Assembly (NCBI GenBank): GCA_028875655.1
Contig: JAPPCX010000036.1
Location: 1-43,036, forward strand
Source: Chloroflexota bacterium
GTDB taxonomy: Bacteria; Chloroflexota; Dehalococcoidia; Lucifugimonadales; UBA3495
Reading direction: 5' to 3'
DNA: 43,036 nt
The notes under the pieces are model-generated. The model was given only the letters and a program-made list of their open reading frames with translations, did not search any database and was not told the DNA's origin. Below, piece after piece: positions 12,617 through 29,350 of the stretch (the stretch's first letter is position 1; the number at the start of each line of letters is the position of its first letter). Position numbers and translations under genes: made by a program.

Positions 12617-12692
12617 GCCGATGTAGCTCAGCCGGAAGAGCAGCGGTTTCGTAAACCGCAGGTCAAGGGTTCGAGTCCCTTCATCGGCTCCA
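12617..12692 (+). tRNA. tRNA-Thr (anticodon CGT)
   Basis: Full cloverleaf. The acceptor arms are GCCGATG and CATCGGC, and the D-arm is GCTC...GAGC. The anticodon stem GCGGT/ACCGC encloses the loop TTCGTAA, giving anticodon CGT (reads ACG, Thr). The T-arm is AAGGG-TTCGAGT-CCCTT. The discriminator is T and the CCA end is encoded (12690-12692). Confidence 0.95.
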
Positions 12693-13213: not shown

Positions 13214-14812
13214 TCACTCCGGCTTCGCCTCACGGCCTCTGGGCATGAGGTAGCCGACGCGGAGCTCGGTGAAGATGTAGGTGGGATGGTCGGCGTTGTC
13301 GCCCAGCTTGCGGCGCAGCTGGGCCACGATGGTGCGCATGGGACGCAGGTCCCCCTTGCTACGCTTCCCCCAGACCCGCTCCAGCAAATGATCGTAGGTA
13401 ACCACCCGACCGGCGTTGGCCGCAAGCTCGGCCAACAGCCGGTACTCCATCGCCAACAGCGACAGCGGTTGGCCCGCCAGCGTTACCCGGCGCGCCGCGA
13501 AATCAACCGTGAGTTCGCCCAGCGCGTAGGGTTCCGTGGGCTGGGGCGTCTCCCGCCGGCGCAGGGCCGCCCGGATCCGGGCCGCCAGTTCCGTCTGGGA
13601 GAAGGGCTTGACCACGTAATCGACGGCTCCCATGTCCATGGCCCGGGCGATGAGGTCCTCCCGCCCATAGGCGGAGATGAAGATCACCGGCACGTCCGCC
13701 ACCGCCCGGATGGCCTGCATCAGCTCGACGCCGTCGGCGCCGGGCAGCATGAAGTCCAGCAGCGCCAGCTGCGGGTTTTCCTCCGGCATGAGGCGGATAG
13801 CCTCCTCCGGGTCTCCGGTAACCACCGGCGCGTAGCCGGACATGGCCAGGGCATCTCGAATGTAGCGCAGCGCCTGGGGGTCGTCGTCCACCGCCAGGAC
13901 GGGCACCCGCTCTTCGCCATCGCCGTGCCCGTCGAGAGCGCGGCGCCCCGACGCTGGAGCGCGCTGGGTCGCTGCGCTCGCGGAGGGTTCGCCCACCGTG
14001 GGCAGGGTGAAGGTGAAACGCGCCCCTCTACCCAGGCCCTCGCTTTCCGCCCAGATGCGGCCCCCGTGGGCCTCCACGATCCCCTTGCAGATGGCCAGCC
14101 CCAACCCGGTGTCTCCGCCCGGATCCTCGGCCTGGGCCTGGGAGAACTTGCGAAACAGCAGCGGCAGGCTTTCCGCCGGGATGCCCCGGCCCTCGTCGCT
14201 CACCGATATGGCAACGTGAACGTCCTCCGACACCGCCGACACCCGGATGACCGACGCCTCCTCGGACTGTCGGGCTGCGTTGGACAGCAGGTTGACCAGC
14301 ACCTGCACCAGGCGCCGGCGGTCTGCCAAAACCAACGGCAGATCCGGCGCGATGTCGATGGCCAGGTTGTTGCGGCCTCCCGCGCTGATGAAGGCGCTGC
14401 GGGCCCGGTCCACCAGCGCGGTCACCTCCGCCGGTTCGGGACTCACCGGCAGCGTGCCCGTCTCGATGCGGGCCACGTCCAGCAGGTCGCCCACCAGGCG
14501 GTTCATGTGGTCGGCCTGTTCATCCATAATGCGGAAGATCTGGCGCACCACCGCCGGGTCGAGTTCCGTGGCCGAACCCAGCACGGTGGCGGCGGAGCCC
14601 TTGATGGTCATCAGGGGCGCTCGCAGCTCGTGGCTGACCATGCCCAGGAACTCGGCCCGCAGCCGCTCCAGCTCCTCCACCGCCGCCAGGTCCTGCAGGG
14701 TCACCACCATGGACTCCACCACTCCCGCATCAGAAACGATGGGCGTGGCGTTGAGCAGGACCGTAACGCTCCGGCCATCGGGAACGCTGATGACGATCGT
14801 TGCGGTGTTCAT
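13214..14812 (-). CDS. One-chain two-component system: (PAS)-HisKA-HATPase-REC-winged helix, 5' end missing
   Basis: 532 residues combining a sensor kinase and an OmpR-type regulator. From the N-terminus: the C-terminal part of a PAS domain (VPDGRSVTVLLNATPI), HisKA with phospho-acceptor His in FLGMVSHELRAPL, and HATPase_c with N-box LVNLLSNAARQ, G1 DEGRGIP and G2 GDTGLGLAI. A receiver domain follows (acidic VDDD, phospho-acceptor Asp in LLDFMLPGADG, VISAYG-like FISAYG, and VKPF). Last is a winged-helix Trans_Reg_C domain (LLAMEYRLLAELAANAGRVV, VAQLRRKLGD). The open frame begins inside the PAS fold exactly where a truncated RND gene begins on the other strand, with no intergenic space. The real N-terminus (rest of PAS and any sensor or membrane part) is therefore missing. 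ATG 14812 is only the first available start and need not be used. Confidence 0.85.
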   Translation of the reverse strand: MNTATIVISVPDGRSVTVLLNATPIVSDAGVVESMVVTLQDLAAVEELERLRAEFLGMVSHELRAPLMTIKGSAATVLGSATELDPAVVRQIFRIMDEQADHMNRLVGDLLDVARIETGTLPVSPEPAEVTALVDRARSAFISAGGRNNLAIDIAPDLPLVLADRRRLVQVLVNLLSNAARQSEEASVIRVSAVSEDVHVAISVSDEGRGIPAESLPLLFRKFSQAQAEDPGGDTGLGLAICKGIVEAHGGRIWAESEGLGRGARFTFTLPTVGEPSASAATQRAPASGRRALDGHGDGEERVPVLAVDDDPQALRYIRDALAMSGYAPVVTGDPEEAIRLMPEENPQLALLDFMLPGADGVELMQAIRAVADVPVIFISAYGREDLIARAMDMGAVDYVVKPFSQTELAARIRAALRRRETPQPTEPYALGELTVDFAARRVTLAGQPLSLLAMEYRLLAELAANAGRVVTYDHLLERVWGKRSKGDLRPMRTIVAQLRRKLGDNADHPTYIFTELRVGYLMPRGREAKPE

Positions 14813-16568
14813 CCCGTTGGGTTTCCTGCCCGGCGTGGTGGGCCAGTTCTTCCTGCCCTTCGCTCAGACCGTTTGCGTGTCGCTGGTGGCGTCCACTCTG
14901 GTGGCGCTGACCGCAGTGCCAGCTTTGGCGTCCTGGTTCCTGCGCCAGGGCGACATTTCGACCGATACGGCCCCACGGCAGCAGGACACGCTGCTTCAGA
15001 AGCTATACACGCCAGTGTTGCGGACCGCTTTGCGTTTCCGCCTGTTAACCGCCGCCGCGAGCGTGGCGGTGGTGCTGGCCAGCCTGGCGTTGATTCGCGT
15101 GCTGCCCATCGAACTCTTTTCGCAGGGACCTACGGAAGGCATCCGCATCAATCTCAGCCTGGTCAGCAACCCGTCCGCCGGGAAGTTGTTCCACGAGGTA
15201 CGCGAGGTCGAGCGCTTGCTGGACGGTTTCGTGGTGGAGGGCGTGGTGGAGAGCTACCAGGTGACGCTGGGCGCCAGCAGCCCCGGCCTCGGGAGCGACA
15301 CGTCGTTCGACCGGGCCTGGTTCACCGTGGCGCTATCGGAGGATCCGCCCGCCGACCTGGACGAGCGCATCCGCGAGGCGCTGCCCGACAGCGAGGACTT
15401 GACGGTGCGTGTGTTCGCCGATTCCGGTGGACCGGGCCAAAGCAGCAGCTTTCGGCTCACCGTTACCGGGGCCAATTACGAGGAGGTGCGGGCCGCCACG
15501 TACATGCTCCAGGCCGCCGTCGAGAACGACCCCGGGGTGCGCAACGTGACAACCAACATAACGGACGGATCTGAAGAGTTCACCATCACCATAGATCCCA
15601 ACGAGGCAGGACGGTTCGGGCTGACGACAACCAACGTTGCTAACCAGATGCGCGTCTGGCTGCAGGGCAGCGAGGTGACGGAGTTCGATCTGGGCGGGGA
15701 AACGCTCGACGTTGTTGTTCGGGGCGCGCCTGAGGCGGTGGACGACGCCGACGACATACCCCTGCTGCCGATCTCAGTGGGCGGCGGAGTGATCCCCCTG
15801 GGGGCTATTTCGGATTCCGGCTACACCGTCGGGCCCAGCGCGGTCACCCATTACGATGGGCATCGTTCGGCCACCGTTTCCGGTAGCCTGGTCGGCCGCG
15901 ATGCCGGCGCCACTGGAGAGCGCATCGACGCCATCGTCGCGTCCACGCCGTTGCCGCCGGGGATCAGCGTACGCTCGGGCGGGACGTTCAGCTACATCCA
16001 GGAGGAGTTCAAAAACATTTACGTGGCGATGGCCATCGGCGTTTCCCTGGTGTACCTGGTGATGGTGGCGACCCTGGGTTCGCTGAAAATCCCGTTCATC
16101 ATCGTGTTGAGCATGCCGCTGGCGGTGGTGGGCGCGCTAATCGCGCTGGTTATCACCGACCGCTCGCTGAGCCTGCCGGCGTTGATGGGATTCCTGCTGC
16201 TGGTGGGCATCGTGGTAACCAACGCCATCGTGCTGCTGAGCTTTGTGCAGCAGTTGCGCCAGCGCGGCGAGTCCCCGTATGAAGCGGTCATGCAGGCGGG
16301 GCGAACGCGCCTGCGTCCCATCCTGATGACCGCCTTCACCACCATCCTGGCGCTGATCCCGCTATCGCTGAGCGACTCCGCCGGCCTGGTGGGAGCAGAG
16401 CTGGCCACGGTGGTCATCGGCGGCCTGATCAGTTCCACGTTCCTGACCTTGGTAGCCGTGCCGGTGGTGTACCTGCTTTTTGAGGAATCCATCCCTAACC
16501 TGTGTGCCCAAATCGCGCGGATGATTGGATACCAATTTCGCCGGCGGCCGGCGGATGATCGCGAGTAG
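14784..16568 (+). pseudogene. RND efflux transporter permease, N-terminal ~440 residues missing
   Basis: Encodes roughly 594 residues matching the second part of an AcrB/HAE1-type RND permease, normally about 1030-1070 residues. Homology begins at TIVAVFIPLGFLPGVVGQFF (transmembrane helices 5-6 of the first half). It continues through the central TM7 region (LLTAAASVAVVLASLALI), the second periplasmic loop and the C-terminal bundle, with the hallmark VGIVVTNAIVLLSFV and RLRPILMTAFTTILALIPL. The frame is open further upstream to 14247, but that part is antisense to the kinase and unlike RND proteins. No ribosome-binding site or promoter is present at the breakpoint. It therefore looks like a 5'-truncated gene created by a rearrangement, or by a mis-join in the assembly. 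A 7-bp hairpin overlaps its stop codon. Confidence 0.85.
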
Positions 16569-16577
16569 TAACTCGCG
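16560..16577. terminator. Small hairpin at the RND stop codon
   Basis: CGCGAGT (16560-16566) and ACTCGCG (16571-16577) form a 7-bp stem with loop AGTA spanning the TAG stop. No T-run follows, so a terminator role is weakly supported. Confidence 0.3.
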
Positions 16578-17386
16578 GGGCCATCCACAGATACGTCGGC
16601 CACGGAAGCCGACGGCGTTCCTTCGTCCGATGGTTGGGAATGGGAGATCTACGACCTCAGCATAACGGCACAGGAATTCACCCAGAAGCAGGTGGACCGG
16701 CTGGTTCTGGATTCCCAGGAGGAAGGGAGCCCCGCGATTTTCGCCGGGGGACTGTACCACTGGCTCGCCAGGGACCTGTGGTGGTGCCCCATCCCCCGCC
16801 AGTCTGCGGGCGTTGGGCAGCGCGCCACAGCGGGGTGCGCTGCCACGGGGCCCTTCGGAGGTGATGAAACCCCATGACGACAACCCATCATTCCCCCCGA
16901 CCGCGTAACGCCCGCCTGCTGCCCACATCGCCGTGATTGAGCATTTCGGCTCCTGTAGTTGCATTCGCCACAGGCAGCCTTCTTTGACGAAAGGCCGGGG
17001 CATGGGTTCACAAAGGTGCCCTGATGCTTCCTGGCGGTGGTCGGCGGCGGTGCCAGCGAGTCGGCGAAACGGGTTGATTAAAGACAACGGGTCCTCCCGG
17101 CCTGCTCACCGGTAGTCCGTCAGCGGCGAAAGTGTGTGGATAATGGGTGCCCTTGCCAGCGTCATGCTGGAGCGCATCAGGTAACTGTGCCGCCGATTCA
17201 AACAGCTGGCCATGGGTGCCCACAGGTCCTCGCCAGCCCGTTCCCTGACCCTTCATCCCTCGTCCGACTACCGCCGACGTTTCCCTGCGGTGGATTCGAA
17301 CTTGGGCGCGAGTGTTTTTCAGCAGGACCGTGGACCCGGCAAATTCGCCTCATCAACTCTGAACAGTTACCTGTTTCGGCTTTTTG
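16578..17386. other. Gene-poor region, possible coding relics
   Basis: About 800 bases between the RND remnant and the DUF1800 promoter. One plus-strand frame is open from about 16590 to 16877 and includes a protein-like stretch (WEWEIYDLSITAQEF, then TQKQVDRLVLDSQEEGS). It follows two stops, lacks a convincing start and turns low-complexity, so it may be a decayed gene. The minus-strand frame around 17008-17256 is also open but matches no family I recognise. No insertion-sequence ends were identified. Confidence 0.45.
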
Positions 17387-17415
17387 TTGACATTCGACTT
17401 GGCCAATCCTAATAT
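17387..17415 (+). promoter_or_regulatory. Near-consensus sigma70 promoter of the DUF1800 operon
   Basis: TTGACA (17387-17392), exactly 17 bases, then TAATAT (17410-17415). Transcription would start near 17422, giving a leader of about 49 bases. It is the best promoter match in the window and suggests strong constitutive expression. Confidence 0.8.
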
Positions 17416-17470
17416 GCTGCGTATCTGCGCTTGGCTGAGTGTACTGGGCTCGATAAACGGAGAGGTGGTA

Positions 17471-18886
17471 ATGTCCCACCAAGAAGACATTCGATTGATG
17501 GCCCATTTGATGAGACGGGCAGGCTTCGGTGATACCCGTGAGGAACTGGAGGAGCGTGTCTCCAAAGGCTACGAAGCCGTGGTCGAGGAGCTTCTGTATC
17601 CAGAGCGGCAGCCGGCCATAGACGACGAACTGCTGTACCGGATCTTCCCGGGTTATGAGGGGGCTGGGGCGCTGCCAATAAATCAGGCCAATTGGGTGTT
17701 CCGGATGATCAACACCCAACGTCCTCTGGAAGAGAAGATGGCCCTCTTCTGGCATCAGTTGTTCGCCACCGCCAACTCCAAGGTGGACAATCCACTGGAG
17801 CTGACTCGCCAGATTGCCATCTTCCGTGAATACGGATTGGGTACTTACCGCGACCTCCTGGTAGAGGTCTCAAAGTCGCCAGCCATGATCTTCTGGTTGG
17901 ACAACCAGGGAAATCGTGACGGCGCCATAAATGAAAACTGGGGGCGGGAGCTGTTGGAGCTTTTCTCCCTCGGAGTCGGAAACTACTCAGAGGATGATAT
18001 CAGGGAAGCAGCCAGGGCCTTTACCGGATGGACGATTGCCCCAAAGATTCCCCGTAATCCTTACGGTCGTTTCCATTGGCTATTCGACTACAAACCTGAA
18101 GACCACGATGATCGGGAGAAGACCTTCCTGGGCCATACCGGGAACTTCAATGGCGAAGACATCGTGGACATTATTGCGGATCAACCGGCTACGGCCCGGT
18201 TCCTGGCCCGTCACCTCTACAGATTCTTCGTCGCCGACGAGCCACATGTCGCCAGTTGGAACGTTACACCACCAGTTGACCCTGAAGCCATCGAGTTGTT
18301 GGCGGATGCCTACAATGAATCCCGTGGCGACATCCGGTCTATTTTACGAGTGTTGTTCAACTCAGAGTTCTTCAAGAATGCCCGCTTCGCCCGTGTGAAA
18401 AGCCCGGCTGAATTGATCGTTGGCACTGTGCGTATGGCGGGCGACTATCAAGGCTTCAAGCCAGGACTCAACAACCTGGCGTTGGAGTGCGGTTGGCAGG
18501 GACAGGCGCTGCTCAATCCTCCCAGCGTGGAGGGTTGGCACACCGGCTCAGAATGGATCGACCCCGGCGTTTTGATGCGCCGGGTGAACTTTGCCGCGAG
18601 GATATTTGGAGACATCTCACTACCCGGCGTGCAATCTATCGTCAAACGGGTGTTGGTGAACGTGCATGTGCATGGGGATCATTCCCCCGAGGCGATAGTG
18701 GAAGCTTGTCTCGATGCGATGGGACCGTTGGAAGTCAGTAGGGCCACCCACTCTGAATTGATTGCCCATGCCGAAAAATGTGGCGATCTGGCCTGGAGCA
18801 CCCACGAAGAATTCAGGGCTACAATGCGCAATGTGAGCAGGATCTTGACCTTGATTGCCGCCTCGCGAGAATATCAGTTTGCCTAG
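17471..18886 (+). CDS. DUF1800 domain-containing protein
   Basis: A 471-residue DUF1800 protein. Typical features are the N-terminal LMRRAGFGDTREELE, then FWHQLFATANSKVDN, the family core NWGRELLELFSLGVGNYSED followed by ARAFTGW, and the C-terminal region with LLNPPSVEGWHTG and WIDPGVLMRR. The biochemical role of DUF1800 is not established; it is very often encoded next to DUF1501, as here. ATG 17471 is chosen because AGAGGTGG directly precedes it and the in-frame upstream codons overlap the promoter. I see no signal peptide, whereas many relatives are exported. It is the first gene of a three-gene operon. Confidence 0.92.
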   Translation: MSHQEDIRLMAHLMRRAGFGDTREELEERVSKGYEAVVEELLYPERQPAIDDELLYRIFPGYEGAGALPINQANWVFRMINTQRPLEEKMALFWHQLFATANSKVDNPLELTRQIAIFREYGLGTYRDLLVEVSKSPAMIFWLDNQGNRDGAINENWGRELLELFSLGVGNYSEDDIREAARAFTGWTIAPKIPRNPYGRFHWLFDYKPEDHDDREKTFLGHTGNFNGEDIVDIIADQPATARFLARHLYRFFVADEPHVASWNVTPPVDPEAIELLADAYNESRGDIRSILRVLFNSEFFKNARFARVKSPAELIVGTVRMAGDYQGFKPGLNNLALECGWQGQALLNPPSVEGWHTGSEWIDPGVLMRRVNFAARIFGDISLPGVQSIVKRVLVNVHVHGDHSPEAIVEACLDAMGPLEVSRATHSELIAHAEKCGDLAWSTHEEFRATMRNVSRILTLIAASREYQFA

Positions 18887-18921
18887 GCAAGCGCATACAA
18901 CTGATGTAGAAGGAAATTAAA

Positions 18922-20058
18922 ATGGCATCAACCCATAAAGACCCCGTGCTGGTCGTGCTGGAGCTGACTGGGGCCAACGACTACCTCAATACGATTGTTC
19001 CTTATAGCAATCCTCTGTATTGGGATAACCGGCCCAAGGTCCACATCCCTGAAGACCAATTGCTGCCCATAAATGACCAACTGGCATTCCGGGGCGGTAT
19101 GGAGCCGTTGAAAGAAATCTACGACCAGGGCAACATGGCAATCATTCACGGGATCGGATTTGAAAATTCACCCCGTTCGCACTTTCGCGCCATGGACATC
19201 TGGCATACCTGCGAGCCGGATTCCATCGGGATTGACGGCTGGCTCGCCAAGGTCATCCGGGACTTGGATCCTGGCGGCGAGAACGTGCTGAAGGGAGTTA
19301 ACTTGGGCCAGGGCCTGCCTCGGGCAATGGCCATGAAGGGGGTTCCTGTTACTTCTGTCAACCACCTTCCTTCCTACGGCGTACTCTCATCAAATCCGGG
19401 AATCGCCTCCGAGCAAGAGCGGAACCAGTTGTTGGAGACCTTTGCCCGCATGTACGCTCCCACCATCGGCGCCGGACCGACCATGGAGTATCTGGGACAG
19501 GCAGGACGGGATGCATTGCGAGGAGCCGACATCATTCGGGTTGCTCCCGAAACCTATTCTTCAAGCGTAGAGTACGCTAATAATGCCATCGCCAGGCGCT
19601 TCAGAGACGTGGCCCAAGTGCATCTGGCCGGCCTGGGCGCCCAGGTCTTTTACACCTCCCACGGGCCCTTCGACACCCACTATGACCAGCTGGGACCACA
19701 TGAAAAACTTTGGACGGAAATTTCCGTCGCCATACGCGATTTCTTCGACGACCTGCGTGAGCACGACGCCTCAAACGAGGTGGTTGTTATGTTGTTCAGC
19801 GAGTTTGGGCGCCGCGTCCGCGATAATGGCACCGGCACCGACCACGGAGCGGCTGGGGTAGCGTTCGTCATTGGCGACCGGGTGTATGGTGGAATGTACG
19901 GGACCTATCCCTCGCTGAAACCGGGGGATCTCACTCAAGGAGACCTGGCGCCCAACTATGATTTCCGCGGCTTCTACTCCACGTTGGCGGAAAAGTGGCT
20001 GGGACTCGACCCGGTCCCTATCGTCGGTGGACACTTCGAGCAAATGTCCTTCGTGTAG
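18922..20058 (+). CDS. DUF1501 domain-containing protein
   Basis: A 378-residue DUF1501 protein, a family related to the alkaline-phosphatase/sulfatase fold. Visible signatures are VLVVLELTGANDYLNTIVPY at the N-terminus, PRSHFRAMDIWHT in the middle, HGPFDTHYDQ and the C-terminal VVVMLFSEFGRRVRDNG followed by TDHG; the conserved Asp/His residues are candidate metal ligands. ATG 18922 follows AGAAGGAAAT. Most DUF1501 proteins start with a Tat signal (twin arginine); this one does not, so it may be cytoplasmic or exported together with a partner. It is the second gene of the operon, 35 bases after DUF1800. Function not established. Confidence 0.92.
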   Translation: MASTHKDPVLVVLELTGANDYLNTIVPYSNPLYWDNRPKVHIPEDQLLPINDQLAFRGGMEPLKEIYDQGNMAIIHGIGFENSPRSHFRAMDIWHTCEPDSIGIDGWLAKVIRDLDPGGENVLKGVNLGQGLPRAMAMKGVPVTSVNHLPSYGVLSSNPGIASEQERNQLLETFARMYAPTIGAGPTMEYLGQAGRDALRGADIIRVAPETYSSSVEYANNAIARRFRDVAQVHLAGLGAQVFYTSHGPFDTHYDQLGPHEKLWTEISVAIRDFFDDLREHDASNEVVVMLFSEFGRRVRDNGTGTDHGAAGVAFVIGDRVYGGMYGTYPSLKPGDLTQGDLAPNYDFRGFYSTLAEKWLGLDPVPIVGGHFEQMSFV

Positions 20059-20093
20059 CTTCAGGACCCAAAATAGTTCGCAGGAGAGGGGAT

Positions 20094-21092
20094 ATGCTGA
20101 CCACCGTCGCCGCCGGCCGGGTGTATGACTACAGCTACTGCATAGGCATGTACAGTCAGGACGGCAGGGGATTTTGGGCTCCCCAAGATTTCGTCCTGGG
20201 ACCCAACGGTCGAATTTATGTGTTGAGCCGCGGTGTGGAACAATTGGGTCAGCGTGTCACCAAGATCAACTTTGATCACGATTTTCAAGGACAGTTCGGC
20301 TCCGTCGGCGAGGGCGACGGGGGCTTCGTTTGGCCCCGGTCAATTGATTTGGACCGCCACGGCCGAGTGTTCCTTTCGGACGAGTATCTCAACCGGGTAA
20401 CCATTTACAGTGAAGAAGGTAGTTATCGGTATCACTGGGGCAGGCCCGGCAGCGAAGACGGGGAGCTAAACGGACCGTCGGGAATTGCTTTCGACTCCCA
20501 GGGAACCGTTTGGGTGGTGGACAGCTTGAATCACCGGGTGCAGAGTTTCAGCCAGATCGGTGAGTTTCAGTCCAAATTCGGGCAGCAAGGTGACGGTGAC
20601 GGAGATCTGGAGATGCCATGGGGCATCTGCATCGACCGTCAGGACAACATCTACGTCGCGGATTGGGGAAATAACCGGGTGCAAAAATTCGCCCCTACTG
20701 GAGAGTTGCTCGTTAAGTTCGAAGGCTCCAGCGCCGGGGTGGGTTCGCTCAAAGGGCCATCCGGTGTAGCTGTGGACTCAGATGGAGATGTATATGTAAC
20801 CGACTGGGGGAACCACCGAGTCCAGATCTACGCCCCCGACGGCCAATATATTACGGCGCTGGTCGGTGACGCTCAAGAGCCTTCGCCATGGGCCCAGACC
20901 TACATCGATGCCAATCCGGATATCATCAAAGCCAGGCGGCGGACAGATCTGGAGCCTGAATGGCGGTTCCGGCGGCCAGTGGCTGTCAACGTTGACGCAG
21001 ACGACCGGATCGTAGTTTTGGAGTCCTACCATCACCGGCTTCAAATCTACAACAAGCTGAAGGATTACGAGGAACCCTCAATAAACTTGTAG
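20094..21092 (+). CDS. NHL-repeat beta-propeller protein
   Basis: A 332-residue protein of tandem NHL repeats forming a predicted six-bladed beta-propeller. At least five repeats are readable: WPRSIDLDRHGRVFLSDE with NRVTIY; GPSGIAFDSQGTVWVVDS with HRVQSF; MPWGICIDRQDNIYVADWG with NRVQKF; GPSGVAVDSDGDVYVTDWG with HRVQIY; RPVAVNVDADDRIVVLES with HRLQIY. Such propellers mostly bind proteins, peptides or carbohydrates. The start at ATG 20094 follows CAGGAGAGGGG; the frame is open upstream only as DUF1501 shadow. There is no signal peptide. It ends the DUF1800-DUF1501-NHL operon (gap of 35 bases), so it probably works with those two proteins. Confidence 0.92.
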   Translation: MLTTVAAGRVYDYSYCIGMYSQDGRGFWAPQDFVLGPNGRIYVLSRGVEQLGQRVTKINFDHDFQGQFGSVGEGDGGFVWPRSIDLDRHGRVFLSDEYLNRVTIYSEEGSYRYHWGRPGSEDGELNGPSGIAFDSQGTVWVVDSLNHRVQSFSQIGEFQSKFGQQGDGDGDLEMPWGICIDRQDNIYVADWGNNRVQKFAPTGELLVKFEGSSAGVGSLKGPSGVAVDSDGDVYVTDWGNHRVQIYAPDGQYITALVGDAQEPSPWAQTYIDANPDIIKARRRTDLEPEWRFRRPVAVNVDADDRIVVLESYHHRLQIYNKLKDYEEPSINL

Positions 21093-21261
21093 ACGCCTGC
21101 CCGTCTCCAAATATTTGCGCGTCGCCGGTCACTTTCCCAGGCCGGTCCACCTAAAGGGGAATCGAACGAGCCTCGGGCGGGGCCACTTGCAAAGAGCAGA
21201 GAGAAGGGCCCCGTTGAGAAAGTCTGGACACTTGCGGCGGATCGACCGTAGTGCTTGGCGG

Positions 21262-21678
21262 CTACACCCTTCCTTGAATTGCCGCTCGTAAGTCGGGGTT
21301 CAGCGATTCGCGAGTTACGCCGTCAGCGTCCGATGCTGCGAGCACCGCCACCAGGCGCCGCGCGGCATCGGTCATGTTGCTTGCCAATTCGTTGCACAGG
21401 TGGCTGTCCCGTTGTGCCGGAGTAGGTGGTGGTTCAGGGGCCGGCTGGCGGCGGGCCGTTGCACTGGCGCCGTTCTCCCGCACTCTCTGGTAGCGGGACG
21501 GCATCTGTGCGGGTGTTTCCGAGGGGGTAAGGGCGTCCGGCTCCGCTTCCCTGCTTGCCGATACAGCGGCAGCGGCCGATAATTCTTGCGCGCCGCCCAC
21601 TCCGGCGATGCGCCGCAGGGCGGCGGTGGACCCCTCCGGGTCTCCCTCAATGCTGATGGTTACTGAAATAGACGGCAT
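21262..21678 (-). CDS. Hypothetical protein
   Basis: 138 residues, not recognised. It starts with a short beta-like segment (MPSISVTISIEGDPEG), has an Ala-rich and then Pro-rich middle with low complexity, and ends with a compact helical stretch (MTDAARRLVAVLAASDADGV, then TRESL) that resembles a small winged-helix-like module. ATG 21678 has GGAG about seven bases upstream on the minus strand; the frame continues further upstream without a better start. It lies between the NHL operon and the integrase relic and may belong to the same mobile segment. Its reality as a gene is moderately supported. Confidence 0.5.
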   Translation of the reverse strand: MPSISVTISIEGDPEGSTAALRRIAGVGGAQELSAAAAVSASREAEPDALTPSETPAQMPSRYQRVRENGASATARRQPAPEPPPTPAQRDSHLCNELASNMTDAARRLVAVLAASDADGVTRESLNPDLRAAIQGRV

Positions 21679-21885
21679 ACCAGGCTCCGACGATTGGTGG
21701 GTGAAGCCTACCTGCGCCTGGCGGAAATTGAGCTGCTGATTGCCGAAAAGCTCGCGGCCCGATAAAACCGAGGTCGCGGGCACGGCATCGCCTACGACGC
21801 CGTGGTGCGCGCGGAAACCGAAGTCGGAACCTACACGAAACCGAACCCCGGCCCGTCAGTTGACGACAAATTTGACCGCAGGTAA

Positions 21886-22297
21886 ACGCTGGCTAATCAT
21901 CGGCTCGCGGCCACGGAATGCCCTCTGGGGCGAGACGCTGCCGGGAAGCGAATTCGGAAGACGGAGACGGTTCGGGGCAAGGAAGCCGAAGCCGACCGTC
22001 GGCTCCGTCAAATACTCTCAGACTTGAATCGAGGTGTGTCCCCGCCCAAGACCAAATACAAGGTCGGCGAGTGGCTGGACAAGCTGGCTCCGCTTCAAAT
22101 CCAGGAACTGTACGCGGAACTGCTGGAAGGCGGCATGGCGCCCACGGGAGTGCAGGCAGTCCACAACATGCTCAGTGGGGCAATCAAGCACGCTGCTGGC
22201 GCAGGCGGAAGCCGAGGAGCACTGGCTGTGGGCGTTGCTCCACCTGATTGTTTACACCGGGAAGCGGCGCGGAGAGGCGCTGGCCCTATTTTTGCCG
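21886..22297 (+). pseudogene. Decayed tyrosine recombinase/phage integrase
   Basis: Remains of a site-specific integrase. In one frame, PLGRDAAGKRIRKTETVRGK (AP2-like arm-binding region) is followed by EADRRLRQILSDLNRG, then KVGEWLDKL and LQIQELYAELLEGG (core-binding SAM-like domain) to GAIKHA. After about 22195 the homology continues in the next frame with EEHWLWALLHLIVYTGKRRG and EALAL, the box I region with its catalytic Arg. The linker between the two domains, the rest of the catalytic domain and the real N-terminus are gone. It ends right beside the 3' end of the Rieske gene, so decay and truncation happened at the boundary of the sterol-like cassette. Confidence 0.75.
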
Positions 22298-22312
22298 TTA
22301 CTGCAATCCCAA

Positions 22313-23353
22313 TTATCGAGCCTGATCATCGGGATAGAATTGCGCGCAGTATGCGCGGTAGGCCATGATGTCCACGTCGGCGGCGCAGAGGCGTGGGCGT
22401 GGCGAGTACTTTTTCCGGCTCCAGATCACCATATCCTGCTCAACGTCCCGCCTTTGCTGCAGCGCCATGAATCTGTTCAGTATGGGCGCGCGCAGCCGGG
22501 TCGGAAGAAATCGCAGCCCGGCAATTGGCCGCTTCGGTTTCCGTATCTCCCGCGTCTGTCCGACGAGGGACAGGTCGATGAGCGTGCCGTCAACCGGCGT
22601 CGCCAGCACCCACAGGCGCATGTCCGTGCCTATGGACCTTTCACGAATCTCCACGAATGAATAGCCCAGCCCGAAGACCTGCGTTCTGGCGGACACGTCG
22701 AACGTGAGGGTGACCATTCCGGCAATCTTCCGCGTTCTTTTGAAGTCGAAACAGTTCTCGAGAAAGTGACCCTCCACCGACAGCTCATCAACGCGGCTGA
22801 CGTTGTCGTAGCCGTGAACGTATTGCAGATGGGCCAGATCCACCGAGTTCTCGGCGACCTCCTGGGGATGGCCGGGGAAGCGCAGTGTCTGGACGTGCAA
22901 GTCGCACCAGCCGGCCTGGTCCAGGTTGTCGGCGGGCAGATTCCATCGCGGCGCCCGCCCGTCAATGCCCCACCAGGCGAAGATCAGCCCCAGGATCTCC
23001 TGTGTCTCGAATACCTGCAGCCTCGCCGTCCTCGGCGCGGGCGCAAAGGGAGTGGCCACGCACCGCCCGCTGACATCGTACTCGAACCCATGGAAGGGGC
23101 AGATCAGGCGACCCCCGCAGACTCGTCCCCCGGCATCCCGTCCCAGGTCGGCGCCCAGGTGCGGGCAAGAAGCTCTGGCGACGCAGATGCGTTCGTTCTC
23201 ATCACACCAGGCGATGATTTGTTCGCCCATCCACGTCTTTTGCATCAGCTCGGCTTTCAGAACAGCCTGACGGCTGGCAACGAAATACCAACCTTCGGGG
23301 AACGGAGAACTCAGCTCCAGGTATGTGGGTTGACTGCTTCGGGTGGACATCAT
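22313..23353 (-). CDS. Rieske [2Fe-2S] non-heme iron oxygenase
   Basis: A 346-residue Rieske oxygenase alpha-subunit-like enzyme, predicted to activate O2 for hydroxylation, demethylation or desaturation. The Rieske cluster ligands are Cys63-x-His65 (ASCPHLGADL) and Cys85-x2-His88 (LICPFHGFEY). The mononuclear iron site is ENSVDLAHLQYVHG, with Asp172, His175 and His180 in the D-x2-H-x4-H pattern. Its size and single-subunit look resemble the steroid-acting group (KshA, cholesterol 7-desaturase, SdmA-like C-4 demethylase) more than aromatic-ring dioxygenases; this is inference. It lies 70 bases downstream of the sterol methyltransferase homologue on the same strand, so they are probably co-transcribed. 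ATG 23353 or 23350 may start it. The reductase partner is not in the window. Confidence 0.9.
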   Translation of the reverse strand: MMSTRSSQPTYLELSSPFPEGWYFVASRQAVLKAELMQKTWMGEQIIAWCDENERICVARASCPHLGADLGRDAGGRVCGGRLICPFHGFEYDVSGRCVATPFAPAPRTARLQVFETQEILGLIFAWWGIDGRAPRWNLPADNLDQAGWCDLHVQTLRFPGHPQEVAENSVDLAHLQYVHGYDNVSRVDELSVEGHFLENCFDFKRTRKIAGMVTLTFDVSARTQVFGLGYSFVEIRERSIGTDMRLWVLATPVDGTLIDLSLVGQTREIRKPKRPIAGLRFLPTRLRAPILNRFMALQQRRDVEQDMVIWSRKKYSPRPRLCAADVDIMAYRAYCAQFYPDDQAR

Positions 23354-23423
23354 TCAGTACCGATCAACGTGGGCAACGGTGTGGCGACCTACACGGTGGC
23401 ACAAGGCCCGATGTGGGCGCGGA

Positions 23424-24470
23424 CTATCGACCTGTGGACGGCTTGCGAACCAGGAAACAGTACAACGGCGTGAATATCCCGGCCTTGCCGCCGGCGACAT
23501 AAGCGTTGGCGGTTTCGTTAAGCAGTCGAACGACTTCCGCAGAGCCTTTCGGGAACAGCCCCAGCGTTCCGGCCAGCCGGGACGCCCCGATGAATGCCTT
23601 TCGCCCCAGCGGAGTCCGGTAAAAGGCGTTGACGACGGTCCTGCCCCGGGTTTCCATGGGCTGATACCAGGGCGTCGTGCCGTCGTCCGACGCCACGCCC
23701 AGGTCCGCCCCTTCGACGACCTGAAACCCCACTGCTTCCAGCGTCCGGTTGACCTCCGCAGTGGTTGCAATATCCTTCAGCACTATGCCCTGCATCAGGT
23801 CTCGCTTGATGGCCTGATGACGGCTGTCATCGGTGTCAAACTTCTCCGTCATGCACATTTCCTGGCCCCAAAAGAGAGATCCGGGTTTCAGCACGCGGTA
23901 AATCTCGGCGAATGCGCCCGCCTTGTCCGGCGCGTGGCACGTTGATTCGATGGCGTATCCGCGGTCAAAGGTGTCGTCAGCGATGGCGCCCATGTCCATG
24001 AAGCTGCACGCCAGGTAATCAACCATGTGATCCAGTCCCGCCTCGGCGTTCAGCGCTTTCGCCTTGTCCAACTGCATTTCATTGTTGTTGACGCCCACGA
24101 CCCTGACCCCGGCCTCCCGGACGACACGGCGCATCGGGCCGCCGATCCCGCACCCGACGTCAATCACAGTCATGCCCTGCCGCAACTCCAGCTTGGCCAT
24201 CATCAGCCGCTGGTGGCGAATCTTGGACTCCTCCAGGCTCTCCTGGGGTGATAGCGGCGCGAAGTGCAAAGACTCGCCCCAACTGAACACCATGAATTCG
24301 CCGCAAAGGTCGTAGTATTCCCTGACGGTTTCAGAGTGGTTGTAACCCGCCCCGTCAGCATTCGGCCCGGATATTCGGTCGCTCCATCCGTTGAACCGTT
24401 GCACTCGGTGGGCGACGTCCCGCCCGCGATACGCGGCCTTCAGCCCGTTTGAAAGTTTGCGGAGTTGCAC
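23424..24470 (-). CDS. Sterol C-24 methyltransferase-like protein (SMT/ERG6 family)
   Basis: 348 residues strongly resembling sterol 24-C-methyltransferases, which methylate the sterol side chain with SAM. Conserved SMT regions in order: SWGESLHFAP (residues 63-72, replacing the usual YxYGWGxSFHF), SAM motif VIDVGCGIGGPMRR (102-115) with VVGVNNNEMQ, YAIESTCHAP (172-181), and EMCMTEKFD (204-212). The C-terminal sterol-MT domain has the diagnostic TPWYQPM, FYRTPLGRKAF, then LGLFPKGSAEV, VAGGKAGIFTP and a final VRKP. Length matches ERG6-type enzymes. It starts at GTG 24470 with AGAGGGA just upstream, and has its own promoter at 24511-24540. Bacterial SMTs are rare. It could methylate sterols made elsewhere in the genome or taken up. 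No cyclase is nearby. Confidence 0.9.
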   Translation of the reverse strand: MQLRKLSNGLKAAYRGRDVAHRVQRFNGWSDRISGPNADGAGYNHSETVREYYDLCGEFMVFSWGESLHFAPLSPQESLEESKIRHQRLMMAKLELRQGMTVIDVGCGIGGPMRRVVREAGVRVVGVNNNEMQLDKAKALNAEAGLDHMVDYLACSFMDMGAIADDTFDRGYAIESTCHAPDKAGAFAEIYRVLKPGSLFWGQEMCMTEKFDTDDSRHQAIKRDLMQGIVLKDIATTAEVNRTLEAVGFQVVEGADLGVASDDGTTPWYQPMETRGRTVVNAFYRTPLGRKAFIGASRLAGTLGLFPKGSAEVVRLLNETANAYVAGGKAGIFTPLYCFLVRKPSTGR

Positions 24471-24510
24471 GATTCCCTCTCGATACGGGAATTACAAGCC
24501 TGTTCCCACG

Positions 24511-24540
24511 ACTCTAGCAATTGCTCAGTAACCCCGTCAA
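24511..24540 (-). promoter_or_regulatory. Predicted promoter of the SMT-Rieske operon
   Basis: On the minus strand: TTGACG (24540-24535), an 18-base spacer and TAGAGT (24516-24511). Transcription would start near 24504, about 34 bases before GTG 24470. Confidence 0.5.
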
Positions 24541-24591
24541 CCAAACGGCGATACCGGTCGGCTATTTCGATTGTTCCCGCCGGCCCTTTTC

Positions 24592-24621
24592 TTGACACTC
24601 CAATCCGCCCCTGCCTAAACT
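24592..24621 (+). promoter_or_regulatory. Predicted promoter of the GPP34-P450 gene
   Basis: TTGACA (24592-24597), an 18-base spacer and TAAACT (24616-24621). It is divergent from the SMT promoter, with the two -35 boxes about 51 bases apart, so one regulator could control both directions. Confidence 0.6.
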
Positions 24622-24687
24622 GGTTGTTATAGAAAAGCTACGACTTTGGTTGTCCGGCGGCCACTTCGATGGCCAGGAGAAATGCCG

Positions 24688-26721
24688 ATGGTTGCGTCTG
24701 CGGGCGATTCGGCTACGCTTTCGCTAAGCTTGCCCGAAGAACTGCTCCTAATGTTGCTCAACGAAGAGACGGGCTACTTCCATCAGGTGCCCGGGTGGGC
24801 CTTGAACTGCGCAGTCATCGGCGCCGTGCTGGCGGAGCTCTCGCTGCTGTCCCGCATCGACACCGACCTCGAATTCCTGTTCGTGGTGGACGCTACCCCT
24901 ACCGGCGACCCCATCCTCGACCATGTCCTGCAGGAAATCGCTGACGAAACGGAGGGGCGCAACGCCCAGTACTGGGTCGAACGGCTGGCGCCCAACGCCG
25001 AGGACATCATCGACTCCATTCTCGAACGCCTGGTTGATGGGAAAGTCCTGGTGCGCCACGATGGCGACTACTGGACATTGTCCCCCACGGCTTGGCGGGC
25101 GGGCGTTCTGGGCGGCCCTGCCGATGGCTACGCCCATCAGTTCGTGAAAACCCGCATCAGTGATTTTATCTTCAACAACATCATCCCCGAGCCGCGGGAC
25201 ATCATCATTATCTCGCTGGTCAACTGCTGCGATGTGCTGCGCTTCATGTACCTGCTCGACGACGACGCGACCACGCGCATCCGCTTCATCTGCAACATGG
25301 ACTTGATTGGCCGCTCCATCGCCGACGCGGTCACCGACAGCATCGTCTCCCCCGGGCTCCGCCGTTCCGCCCTGGTTCGGGAAATACCTACCGTATCGCT
25401 GCGCCGTCTTGCGCTCAATCGCCACCTGCGCAACGGCAACCTGCCGGCGTTATTCGCCGACCTGGCCAAAGAGTACGGTCCGGTCTTCCAAGTTCGCCCA
25501 CCCTTTGCCAAACGGCTGGTTTTCCTGGCTGGGCCGGAGACCAACCGCTGGGCCCATCGCAACGGGCGGATGTACCTGCGCGCCCGCGATTACTTTGAAG
25601 GCTTTGAGAAACTCTACGGCGCCTCCGGCGTTTTGCCTTCACTGGACGGCGGCGACCACTTCCGCCTGCGCAAGTCCCTTCAGCCGGCCTATTCTCGCGA
25701 GCGGCTGTCTGAGCAGTTGGACCAACTCTATTCTTACGTCCGCACCCACATGGCCAACTGGGCCGTCGGAGACACTTTCACCGCAACCGATATGTCTCGG
25801 TACCTGGTCAACGCTCAACTCTCGCCCCTATTCATCAGCATTGAATCGCAGGACATCCTCGGCGACCTGATGAAATACAAGGAGCGCGCCCTCAGCACTC
25901 ACGTCGCCCGGGTGATGCCCAGGTTCATGCTCAATACCCCGTCGATGCGACGCCGTACGAAGGGAGTGGACGTTCTGATGGACCGGGTCCGACGCAGTCA
26001 TACGCCTGCTCAGCGCGCCGGACGCCCACGGGACCTGGCCGACGACCTGCTGAGCCTGAACGTCAGCGACCCCCAGCTGGTTCCGGAGTCCAATCTGCGC
26101 TTCGCCTTTTCCGCCGCCCTCATCGCCAGCGTGTACCTGGGCGACGCTCTCAGCTTTGCGGTGTACGCCATGGCTTCACAGCCCGAACTCTACGAGCAAA
26201 TCCGCAGCGAAGCCGACGCGCTCTTTGACGGCGGCGACCCGAATGGCGAGGACTTCAACCCTTCCACAATCGACGTTACTCATCGCTTCCTCATGGAATG
26301 TCTGCGAATGCACCCCATTGTTCCCATGTCCCTCCGGAACGTGATGAACTCCTGCGAAGTTGAGGGCCATTTTCTTCCGGTGGGGGAACGGATTACCATT
26401 GCCCAGACCGCCGCCCACTACATGGATGACGTGTTTCCCGACCCCTTCAAGTTTGACATTGACCGCTACCGGCCGCCGCGCAATGAGCACCTCAGCCCCG
26501 GCTACGCCCCTTACGGAGTAGGCACGCACATCTGCCTCGGCCAGCGCTGGATGGAGTTGCAACTGGCCATCAACGTGCTGATGATTGCCCACCACTTCAC
26601 CCTTGAAGTGCATCCCACCAAGTACCGCGAAAAGATTAAATACAGCCCCTTGCCGTCGATGAAGCCCAGCAAGAAGGTAAAGTTCCGCATCACCGAGCAG
26701 AGGCGCGAAATACCAGCCTGA
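24688..26721 (+). CDS. GPP34 (GOLPH3-like)-cytochrome P450 fusion protein
   Basis: 677 residues joining two families. Residues about 10-215 are a GPP34/GOLPH3-like domain: LSLPEELLLMLLNEETGYF, ALNCAVIGAVLAELSLLSRI, DATPTGDPILDHVLQEIA, AQYWVERLAP and PEPRDIIIISLVNCCDVLRF. From about residue 245 a cytochrome P450 follows: a Glu-x2-Arg motif at 537-540 (ECLRMHP) and the heme loop YGVGTHICLGQRW with axial Cys616 (first aromatic Tyr instead of Phe). In the I-helix (ALIASVYLGDALSF, about 477-490) the usual acid-Thr pair is missing, so O2 activation may differ. GPP34 domains bind membrane phosphoinositides in eukaryotes, so this one may dock the P450 at a membrane holding a lipid substrate. ATG 24688 has AGGAG eight bases upstream. 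It is divergent from the SMT gene and convergent with the MMPL transporter (6-base gap). Confidence 0.9.
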   Translation: MVASAGDSATLSLSLPEELLLMLLNEETGYFHQVPGWALNCAVIGAVLAELSLLSRIDTDLEFLFVVDATPTGDPILDHVLQEIADETEGRNAQYWVERLAPNAEDIIDSILERLVDGKVLVRHDGDYWTLSPTAWRAGVLGGPADGYAHQFVKTRISDFIFNNIIPEPRDIIIISLVNCCDVLRFMYLLDDDATTRIRFICNMDLIGRSIADAVTDSIVSPGLRRSALVREIPTVSLRRLALNRHLRNGNLPALFADLAKEYGPVFQVRPPFAKRLVFLAGPETNRWAHRNGRMYLRARDYFEGFEKLYGASGVLPSLDGGDHFRLRKSLQPAYSRERLSEQLDQLYSYVRTHMANWAVGDTFTATDMSRYLVNAQLSPLFISIESQDILGDLMKYKERALSTHVARVMPRFMLNTPSMRRRTKGVDVLMDRVRRSHTPAQRAGRPRDLADDLLSLNVSDPQLVPESNLRFAFSAALIASVYLGDALSFAVYAMASQPELYEQIRSEADALFDGGDPNGEDFNPSTIDVTHRFLMECLRMHPIVPMSLRNVMNSCEVEGHFLPVGERITIAQTAAHYMDDVFPDPFKFDIDRYRPPRNEHLSPGYAPYGVGTHICLGQRWMELQLAINVLMIAHHFTLEVHPTKYREKIKYSPLPSMKPSKKVKFRITEQRREIPA

Positions 26722-26727
26722 CCCTCA

Positions 26728-29202
26728 TTATCCTTGCCGCTCGTCGCGCCGCTGAATGTCGTCAATCGCCACGTCCAGCTCGCTCCACATTCGCTCTACC
26801 ATGGAACGCAACCGCACGTTCTGGTATGCGCCCCACACCACCATCGCCGGCAGTACCACCAGCACCGACACTACCAACGAATAGACGATGGTAATGGTCG
26901 CCGTAATTCCGAACTGCTGAGACGCTAGCAGGGGCGAGGCGATTAACACTCCGAATCCGAACGCCGTCGTCAGCGCGGAGCCCAACAGGGCCGAACCGGT
27001 GGTGGTCAGGGTCTGAATCGCCGCTTGCTCCGGGTTGCGCGTGCGGGTGTACTCCTCCCGGTAGCGATGAATCACGTGGATGGTGTAGTCAACCCCGATG
27101 CCAATGGACAGCGCGGTAATGATTGATGTGATCAGCGAGTAGGGGATGCCCAGCAGCGCCATGGTGCCCAGCACCCAGATGAGGACGAGCACGATTGGAC
27201 CCACCGCAATCAACCCAAACGCCGGCTGGCGCAGCGTCATCCAGAAAAAGATGCTCAAAATGCCCAGGGCTATGGCGACGGTGGCGCTGATTGCCTCAGT
27301 CTGCCGGTCCGTGATGGCGTCCGTGACGGTAACGGCGATGATTGACTCCGAAGTCGCCGTGATGTCCTCGTCATCGCCAAACCAGAGGGCTTCGATGTCC
27401 CCCTGTATCTCCTTCGCCAGCGCGGCGTCGCCCGAATAAGCCGGGAACTGGATCAGCATCGTATCAAGGCCCGATGGGTCGTTAACCAGGAGACGCGCGG
27501 CCTCGGGGTCTTCCGCCTCAATCCGATCCACCAGCTCCTGCATCAGCGCCGGGTCAAGCTCCACCCCTGCCGAGGCTTCCCGGAGCAGCGCGGCGAGTTC
27601 GGGGTCGTATTTGTCGCCGGGCCTTCCGCTGTCGTTGGTCCAATCGTGGACCAGCAAGTCGTACGACGCCAGGATCGGCCCCGACGCCGCGCCTGGGCGG
27701 CGCTCTTCGTCCTGGAAGGCGGCGGTGAGGTCCCGAAGGTTGAGCAGCGTGCGGGTCTCTGTTACCTCGGCCTTCACCAATACGCTGGCCATCTCCGTCG
27801 AACCGCCCACGGCCGCGTCGAGGGTGTTCATATCTGCAATCACGCTCCCGCCCCTGGGGAGGATGTCGCGGATGCTGAATTCGGACTTCAGGCCGGTGGC
27901 GGCGTATCCCAGGCCAATGGTTATCAGCAGCACTGCGACCAGGCAGGGCGCCGGCCAACGGGTAACCCACCTGCCAAGCAGCTCCGCCACTCGGGGAATG
28001 CCGGGCAGTGCGTTGGCGATTGGGCGGGCGGGCCGCAGAGTCCCCCGGGACTCTCGCCGTCGGTCGATAACCGTGCGCCCGGCCGGAATCAGAGTCAGCA
28101 TTACTATCAGGCTCATGCCCACTCCGAGCCCGGCAACAACTCCGAAGTCGCCAATCACCCCGATGGGCGAGAATAAGCCCGCCAGCAGGCTGACAATCGT
28201 CGTGACGGCGGCCAGGGTCACGGGAATGGAGACTTCGCGAAAGCCGACGCGGACGGCCCGTAACACCGACTCCCCGAGGACGCGCTGCTCGCGGTAGTGA
28301 GAGATCGCCTGGATTGCGTAGTCCACGGTCAGGCTGATAATGATGACGGGCACCATGGTAGTGAGCGAACTGGGCGGCCCGATGAGGCCCAGCGCGTTCG
28401 GCCCAAGCCAGCCCTCTGCTCCCACAACCCAGACTATCGCAAAGATAAGTCCCAACAGCGTCAGCAACATGTCCGAGATGGCGCGCGTGAAGAGCAGGAG
28501 CAAACCTGCGATCAGCAGCAGCGCCAACCCCAGTAGCGGGCCTAACCCCGACTCCGTAGCCTGCTTGTACTCGTCCTCAATGACCACCGGCGACAGGCTG
28601 CTCACGCCCAGTGACCCGTCTTGCCCCGTTGCCAGCTCGTTGATCCTGCGCTCGGCGTCCGCAATCTGTTCGTCACCCGTGTCGCGCAGGCGGATGACGG
28701 CGATTGCCACCGGCGCGCCATCCACGTCCGTTCCGGTCATCGCCGCCAGCGCCGCCTTGATTTCCGGAGGGCTGGGCGCGGCCTCGATTTGCTCCGGGGT
28801 GACGGACTCGAAGCTATCCACCTGGAGCAGGGCTTTGGCCAGCAGGGAGGGAGCGGCGACGGGATTGGTAGGGGCCAGCAGGCCACTCACGGCAGGATCA
28901 GCGGTAACGCTATTGACCAGGCTGTCCATTTGGGAGAGGCCGTCCGGCGTGAGCGCCTCCCCACGGAAGACGAGCGTTACCACGCGAACTTCGCCCGAGT
29001 CTCCGAACAGCTCATCAATCTCTTGGGTCACGTTGGCGATGGGGTGTCCGGGCGGAAGAAACGCCACGTCGGCCCCTTCGGTTGGCGGCGCCCGCAGCGT
29101 CGCCCCGTAACCCAGCAAAACGGTTACAACGAATAGAGCGATGAGCGTGATATACGGGCGGGCCGTGATTAGCCGGCTCATCGTGTCGAGTATCTTGGTC
29201 AT
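26728..29202 (-). CDS. MMPL/RND-superfamily transporter (HpnN/NPC1-like architecture)
   Basis: About 824 residues with two similar halves. Each half has one membrane helix (YITLIALFVVTVLLGYGAT; APCLVAVLLITIGLGYAAT), a large extracytoplasmic loop and a five-helix MMPL bundle. The first bundle has MVPVIIISLTVDYAIQAISH and the second IITALSIGIGVDYTIHVIHR; the GxxxDY pattern is the proton-relay region of the RND/MMPL superfamily. This is the layout of hopanoid transporter HpnN, mycobacterial MmpL and eukaryotic NPC1/Patched, whose five-helix units are sterol-sensing domains. Start ATG 29202 (or 29181) has no clear ribosome-binding site; the frame runs further upstream across tRNA-Leu, which cannot be coding. 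Its position beside the SMT, Rieske and P450 genes suggests lipid or sterol transport across the envelope; the cargo is inferred. Confidence 0.9.
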   Translation of the reverse strand: MTKILDTMSRLITARPYITLIALFVVTVLLGYGATLRAPPTEGADVAFLPPGHPIANVTQEIDELFGDSGEVRVVTLVFRGEALTPDGLSQMDSLVNSVTADPAVSGLLAPTNPVAAPSLLAKALLQVDSFESVTPEQIEAAPSPPEIKAALAAMTGTDVDGAPVAIAVIRLRDTGDEQIADAERRINELATGQDGSLGVSSLSPVVIEDEYKQATESGLGPLLGLALLLIAGLLLLFTRAISDMLLTLLGLIFAIVWVVGAEGWLGPNALGLIGPPSSLTTMVPVIIISLTVDYAIQAISHYREQRVLGESVLRAVRVGFREVSIPVTLAAVTTIVSLLAGLFSPIGVIGDFGVVAGLGVGMSLIVMLTLIPAGRTVIDRRRESRGTLRPARPIANALPGIPRVAELLGRWVTRWPAPCLVAVLLITIGLGYAATGLKSEFSIRDILPRGGSVIADMNTLDAAVGGSTEMASVLVKAEVTETRTLLNLRDLTAAFQDEERRPGAASGPILASYDLLVHDWTNDSGRPGDKYDPELAALLREASAGVELDPALMQELVDRIEAEDPEAARLLVNDPSGLDTMLIQFPAYSGDAALAKEIQGDIEALWFGDDEDITATSESIIAVTVTDAITDRQTEAISATVAIALGILSIFFWMTLRQPAFGLIAVGPIVLVLIWVLGTMALLGIPYSLITSIITALSIGIGVDYTIHVIHRYREEYTRTRNPEQAAIQTLTTTGSALLGSALTTAFGFGVLIASPLLASQQFGITATITIVYSLVVSVLVVLPAMVVWGAYQNVRLRSMVERMWSELDVAIDDIQRRDERQG

Positions 29203-29263: not shown

Positions 29264-29350
29264 TGGTGCCGAAGGTCAGACTCGAACTGACACGGGATAT
29301 TATCCCACCGGTTTTTGAGACCGGCGCGTCTACCATTCCGCCACTTCGGC
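29264..29350 (-). tRNA. tRNA-Leu (anticodon CAA)
   Basis: Minus-strand class II tRNA. The acceptor arms are GCCGAAG and CTTCGGC. The anticodon stem CCGGT/ACCGG encloses the loop CTCAAAA, anticodon CAA (reads TTG, Leu). The long variable arm (TGGGATAATATCCC) is typical of Leu. The T-loop is TTCGAGT and CCA is encoded (29264-29266). A TATACT -10-like box lies at 29366-29361. Its 3' end faces the MMPL gene, a usual attachment position for integrative elements. Confidence 0.95.

Follow-up and report, generated by a model that had tools for sequence, protein, structure and literature searches.

Can a bacterium remodel sterols that it does not build? The question is raised by a four-gene locus on contig JAPPCX010000036.1 (43,036 nucleotides, referred to throughout, at its full length, as the window) of the Chloroflexota genome GCA_028875655.1, which encodes a Rieske oxygenase, a sterol methyltransferase (SMT) homologue, a fusion of a GPP34 domain with a cytochrome P450, and an MMPL/RND transporter. 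We propose, with a probability of roughly seven in ten, that these genes are a horizontally acquired sponge-symbiont cassette which alkylates and oxidises sterols that the cell does not make itself. The window bacterium is very probably resident in a marine sponge; we infer a sponge origin for its genome and for several other sets of metagenome-assembled genomes (MAGs).

Four intact genes

The locus comprises the following genes:

22313-23353, minus strand: Rieske non-heme iron oxygenase of the KshA_C type, 346 aa (PF00355 and PF19298 KshA_C, 5e-24)
23424-24470, minus strand: SMT homologue of a divergent clade that we name SMT-A, 348 aa (PF08498 Sterol_MT_C, 2.9e-16)
24646-26721, plus strand: GPP34 (GOLPH3-like)-cytochrome P450 fusion, CYP51/CYP46-like (PF05719, 2.7e-28; PF00067, 4.7e-35), for which the ATG at 24682 is the more likely start
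26728-29202, minus strand: MMPL/RND (HAE3-like) transporter, 824 aa (PF03176, 1.9e-46; Sterol-sensing PF12349, 8.4e-11)

All four reading frames are backed by GC-periodicity gene calling. The transporter starts at the ATG at 29202; a longer open reading frame (ORF) extends to 29469 only by traversing the tRNA-Leu gene at 29264-29350, and MMPL matches at L216, L217, L219, L220 and L221 were discarded as artefacts of an ORF traversing tRNA-Leu. Compared with the nearest carrier genome, G007, omega (NG86 method) was 0.205 for the SMT, 0.114 for both the Rieske oxygenase and the GPP34-P450, and 0.117 for the transporter, against 0.103 for the housekeeping gene purL; the four genes are thus intact and under purifying selection. 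A preliminary description of the DNA had placed a sterol C-24 methyltransferase homologue, a Rieske oxygenase of the type that acts on steroids, a GPP34-P450 fusion, and a transporter with two five-helix bundles related to sterol-sensing domains at these positions, and domain matches and reading frames bear out each of these identifications at the level of sequence.

The methyltransferase groups with sterol methyltransferases

The PF08498 match of the window SMT is above the cut-off and covers residues 283-344, behind the S-adenosylmethionine (SAM) methyltransferase domain. A scan over 84,980 species genomes returned 181 relatives, of which the best 80 (66-86% identity) were analysed; the SMT signatures VGCGIGGP and IESTCHAP, present in the window protein, are near-invariant over these 80 SMT-A members. 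They form a clade (SH-aLRT 86) whose sister is a second group, SMT-B, together with yeast Erg6, to which SMT-A is about 34% identical. A profile-profile alignment of SMT-A with the SMT-B group, which sits in cyclase clusters, extends over 340 columns (3e-94).

The preliminary description would have been undermined had the gene fallen into a non-sterol methyltransferase clade. Instead, very long branches with an SH-aLRT of 100 set the SMT group (95 rows) apart from the generic methyltransferases that this genus also encodes, and the CMAS/UbiE-type paralogues of the window genome match the SMT at the SAM domain only, with 22-24% identity. Tree and motifs together refute the reading of this gene as a generic CMAS/UbiE-type enzyme. 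Two motifs do depart from the family: region I, with the aromatic motif FYExGWGxSFHF, reads xMVFGWGESLHF throughout SMT-A, and YEWxMTDxYD is replaced clade-wide by GQEMCMTDxFD. Given these changes, it is plausible that SMT-A has another substrate or methylates another position.

Partner enzymes and transporter

In the Rieske oxygenase, the Rieske motif CPH..CPFH and the mononuclear iron motif ENSVDxxHLxYVH are complete, and near-invariant in 42 orthologues. It shares the Rieske and KshA_C fold family and all catalytic ligands with KshA, DAF-36/Neverland and SdmA. Its best solved relatives, the KshA 3-ketosteroid 9alpha-hydroxylases, are nevertheless distant (about 80 bits, 2.6e-21), and it scores far under the cut-off for 4beta-methylsterol monooxygenase.

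The closest profile match of the P450 domain is the M. capsulatus CYP51 (E 5.6e-38), and its nearest solved relatives are CYP51 and CYP46A1. Motif alignment, structure model (pLDDT 82.5) and fold search agree on a P450 fold in which ExxR and the heme Cys are kept; since CYP46A1, CYP51, CYP184A1 and CYP170A1 score within 1 Z of one another (Z 34-35), the fold search cannot name the reaction. The protein differs from CYP51 and CYP46A1 in its fusion to GPP34 and in its I-helix, where the usual AGx(D/E)T, or AGxxTS of CYP51, is replaced by ASxYLGD in nearly all close members; only the outlier L103 keeps AGHYTAS. A second GPP34-P450 fusion in the window genome (L222:304-2319, contig 91), 33% identical, has a canonical AGADTAS I-helix, which indicates that the loss of the acid/alcohol pair is specific to the cassette form. 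GPP34-P450 fusions therefore make up a broader family, and the cassette form departs from its norm. The GPP34 domain, a weak match to GOLPH3, presumably anchors the P450 at the membrane.

The transporter has two five-helix bundles of the MMPL/sterol-sensing type, with one Asp-Tyr pair apiece (TVDY, GVDY). Bundles of this type and proton-relay Asp-Tyr pairs are features that it shares with HpnN, BstA, MmpL, Patched and NPC1, and by sequence it matches, among others, Patched, HpnN and NPC1-like proteins; it scores far under the curated NCBIfam cut-offs, however, with 97 bits against 752 for HpnN and 26 against 1400 for BstA. A role in sterol uptake, or any direction of transport, can be suggested only tentatively.

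The neighbourhood recurs across phyla

Titles of the best 80 SMT relatives name Chloroflexota/SAR202, Dadabacteria, Nitrospirales, Nitrospinota, Gemmatimonadota, Acidobacteria, Acidimicrobiia, Alpha- and Gammaproteobacteria, Truepera and Bacteroidota, these labels being MAG titles of bins that can be contaminated or mislabelled. Carriers include A. aerophoba bins matched by search to the sponge MAG set of PMC5649159 and, to judge from bin codes, MAGs of PMC8163846 from R. odorabile, C. matthewsi, I. ramosa and A. aerophoba.

We counted neighbours in the 57 loci with at least 6 kb of flank on either side of the SMT. The Rieske orthologue lies nearby in 43, the P450 in 42 (in 36 loci no more than 500 bp from the SMT), both in 40 and at least one in 45. 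The neighbourhood is thus conserved in relatives from many phyla, where its absence from all of them would have spoken against the preliminary description, and this recurrence rules out a chance arrangement of the four genes. The transporter is more restricted: orthologues (65-75% identity) are found in Chloroflexota loci only, and in 23 of 24 the gene sits immediately 5' of the SMT in the same orientation, with spacings from an overlap of 69 to a gap of 221 bases, while other phyla have a different MMPL protein (Dadabacteria, Proteobacteria and others) or an AcrB-type pump (Gemmatimonadota and others) near the SMT.

Further recurrent neighbours are a flavin amine-oxidase-like protein in 27 loci and an ERG4/ERG24 reductase in 9. 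The former (PF01593, for example L047:2571-3956), which at L201:14007-15386 adjoins a full sterol cluster, is a possible sterol oxidoreductase. At the Acidimicrobiia loci L088, L094, L102 and L057, SMT-A has no Rieske or GPP34-P450 gene nearby and has other conserved neighbours, judged by eye to be OsmC-like and FAD monooxygenase-like.

Sterol genes with and without a cyclase

Among 294 genomes of the window's class, 32 encode the SMT, 32 the GPP34-P450, 32 an ERG4/ERG24 reductase, 29 the Rieske oxygenase and 17 an oxidosqualene cyclase. By pairwise Fisher tests, in which the genomes are not independent, the SMT overlaps with the GPP34-P450 in 31 genomes (p 1.3e-39), with ERG24 in 29 (2.3e-33) and with the Rieske oxygenase in 28 (9e-34); the pattern persists at genus level, where a hand count finds the SMT in 10 of 184 genera, ERG24 in 11 and both in 9. 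ERG4/ERG24 was not part of the original finding, and its co-occurrence ties the cassette to sterol metabolism; in several loci the two also lie within 10 kb. All 17 cyclase-bearing genomes carry the GPP34-P450, 16 the SMT and 15 the Rieske oxygenase, and 10 SMT-A genomes of the class have a cyclase. SMT, GPP34-P450, Rieske oxygenase and ERG4/ERG24 occur together in 27 genomes, 15 with a cyclase and 12, including the window genome, without.

The preliminary description had remarked that the window holds neither an oxidosqualene cyclase nor a squalene epoxidase, and we can extend this to the whole genome, a draft that is 97% complete with 4.4% contamination: a search of the draft found no oxidosqualene cyclase, only a squalene-hopene-type cyclase with DIDDTA, and no squalene epoxidase (PF08491). 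The candidate L008 was rejected as an oxidosqualene cyclase on its DIDDTA motif and a score of only about 240 bits to TIGR03463. An ERG24-like gene of the ERG4/ERG24 type is encoded on contig C6, away from the cassette. As far as the draft shows, the cell modifies but does not build sterols, which fits a supply from outside.

Elsewhere, the same genes stand within complete pathways. In a Nitrospira bin (bin75, A. aerophoba; L077), a contiguous cluster encodes a 3beta-HSD-like protein, a VanA-type Rieske protein, ERG24, a P450 and a squalene epoxidase-oxidosqualene cyclase fusion, together with SMT-B, a fragment of the cassette Rieske gene, an SMT-A orthologue and a GPP34-P450; in the Nitrospirota loci L078 and L074 the epoxidase-cyclase fusion also lies beside SMT-A. 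In some phyla, therefore, SMT-A and the GPP34-P450 stand beside a full sterol pathway. The Rieske fragment (L077:9570-9905, 112 aa), truncated and placed between two SMT genes, is a probable pseudogene.

Probable gain of the cassette within the genus

Two tRNA genes delimit the locus:

29264-29350, minus strand: tRNA-Leu(CAA), cassette boundary, present without the cassette in non-carrier congeners
12617-12692, plus strand: tRNA-Thr(CGT), opposite boundary in the nearest carrier, G007, where the Rieske and SMT genes directly adjoin it

The SMT is found in only 3 of 14 genomes of the window's genus. In G007 the Rieske gene lies beside tRNA-Thr on contig L029 and the MMPL gene beside tRNA-Leu on L218, with the break between SMT and P450, so that the interval from one tRNA to the other seems to be taken up by the four genes. 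The non-carriers G003, G009, G011 and G012 have the order tRNA-Leu-YqeY-PurQ-EamA-PurL without the cassette. This empty site, with the patchy presence of the SMT, suggests that the cassette was gained within the genus. In G002 the SMT lies on a contig away from the tRNA-Leu site. The SMT-A tree also mixes phyla, with 18 label changes against a minimum of 9, a count exposed to the labelling errors of bins noted above.

Between tRNA-Thr and the Rieske gene (12700-22300) the window contains an extra ~9.6 kb that is absent in G007; it holds an RND pump lacking its N-terminal part and DUF1800, DUF1501 and NHL-repeat genes, and its GC content dips to 0.56.

A proposed pathway and its alternatives

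That the four genes form one sterol pathway, as the preliminary description supposed, is supported by the conserved neighbourhood, the SMT tree, the lack of cyclase and epoxidase, and the co-occurrence with ERG4/ERG24. We hold strongly that the substrate is a sterol and, with moderate confidence, that it comes from outside the cell; the order and position of the reactions and the direction of transport are put forward tentatively. The sterols would come from the sponge, from what it eats or from co-symbionts that make them, and would enter a cell that makes hopanoid-type triterpenes. There the SMT may add one or more methyl groups from SAM to an unsaturated side chain, and the Rieske oxygenase and the GPP34-anchored P450 could act at the membrane on the nucleus or the side chain, by oxidation or desaturation. 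The ERG24-like reductase, encoded outside the cassette, might then reduce one double bond, and the MMPL pump might move sterols within or across the membrane.

Several observations weigh against this proposal. The SMT stands without a Rieske or P450 gene nearby in 12 of the 57 loci counted above (Acidimicrobiia, some Chloroflexota and others); the cassette P450 lacks the acid/alcohol pair of oxygen activation; and SMT-A departs from tested SMTs in region I and YEWxMTD. A cyclase could be missed in a draft of this completeness and contamination, although a general miss is unlikely because the set of SMT, GPP34-P450, Rieske oxygenase and ERG4/ERG24 recurs without a cyclase in 12 genomes of the class. 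A bacterial rather than a sponge source of the sterols is equally possible.

The close orthologues inside complete Nitrospirota clusters, and the 10 cyclase-bearing SMT-A genomes of the class, could also mean that the cassette is the remnant of a de novo pathway, decaying or reused in a lineage that has lost its cyclase and epoxidase. We regard this as unlikely, as none of the four genes is disrupted, omega is low in each, the cassette looks gained rather than left behind in the genus, and its cyclase-less form recurs in many genera. About as improbable is a substrate that is not a sterol but some different polycyclic lipid, for instance a hopanoid or a triterpenoid specific to sponges. The squalene-hopene-type cyclase of the window genome, the weak resemblance of the MMPL protein to HpnN and the altered active-site region of SMT-A would be in keeping with such a substrate; but the cassette co-occurs with a sterol reductase, sometimes at close range, it is associated with oxidosqualene and not hopene cyclase clusters, and the Dadabacteria among the carriers have the SMT and Rieske genes with neither kind of cyclase found. 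The kinship of the Rieske oxygenase with KshA might further suggest that it and the P450 begin the breakdown of host sterol for carbon. To us this appears the least probable of these explanations: methyltransferase and double-bond reductase are biosynthetic steps, Rieske orthologues accompany the cyclase in most sterol-making genomes of the class, and no ring-degradation genes were recognised among the scanned window genes, the whole genome not having been searched for them.

If sterols from outside are indeed alkylated and oxidised by this cassette, sterol side-chain remodelling would seem to be widespread in sponge bacteria, many of them unable to make sterols. In the chemical record, sterols with 24-isopropyl and 26-methyl groups are taken as the oldest sign of animals, and our proposal bears on sponge-type sterols as fossil evidence for the first animals. 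It also names a conserved enzyme set that is open to expression and assay, with SMT-A and the GPP34-P450 as candidate catalysts of ring or side-chain reactions that still await an enzyme. A bolder thought, which we consider a long shot, is that SMT-A has a new regiochemistry and is, for example, the missing C-26 or second-round C-24 enzyme for sponge-type side chains like those of aplysterol and 26-methylstigmastane; symbionts that build no sterols themselves would then convert host sterol into the biomarker sterols of sponges, and the P450 would operate without the usual acid/alcohol pair.

Relation to known systems

Earlier work has described both the alkylation of sterols by bacteria and sterol gene clusters in sponge symbionts (Brown et al. 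2023, PMC10070321; Kelly et al. 2022, PMC9531527). According to the main text of Brown et al. (2023, PMC10070321), symbiont SMTs are active in vitro, three of them making the 24-isopropyl side chain, and host-sterol use is suggested for one Chlamydiae MAG. Those enzymes resemble ours in family, in sponge-symbiont origin and in side-chain alkylation, and some are clustered with oxidosqualene cyclase, sdmA and sdmB; they differ in that SMT-A is altered in region I, and that main text mentions neither a Rieske/GPP34-P450/MMPL cassette nor Chloroflexi. Kelly et al. (2022, PMC9531527), in their main text, describe, for Ircinia symbionts belonging to 11 classes, ERG24-CYP51-lanosterol synthase (LSS) clusters accompanied by SMT. 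Their spread over many phyla, horizontal transfer, ERG24 and an SMT often at the cluster edge recall our loci, whereas their core is one of de novo synthesis and the window genome, without cyclase or epoxidase, has a different four-gene set.

Neither main text describes a Rieske oxygenase with such a P450 fusion and transporter, or a cyclase-less sterol set across Chloroflexota, and a literature search for GPP34 with P450 in bacteria returned nothing relevant. The four-gene cassette and its occurrence without a cyclase therefore appear to be new, in that we found no description of them in the literature. The squalene epoxidase-cyclase fusion, which we had also considered as new, was dropped as such, since fused SMO/OSC is already mentioned by Brown et al. 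(2023, PMC10070321). The fusion ORFs, of about 1115-1220 aa, lie at L077:4360-8019 (1220 aa), L078:2181-5618, L074:2973-6575, L200:9203-12547 and L201:5566-8922, and their hosts overall are Nitrospirales, Acidimicrobiia and one Gammaproteobacterium.

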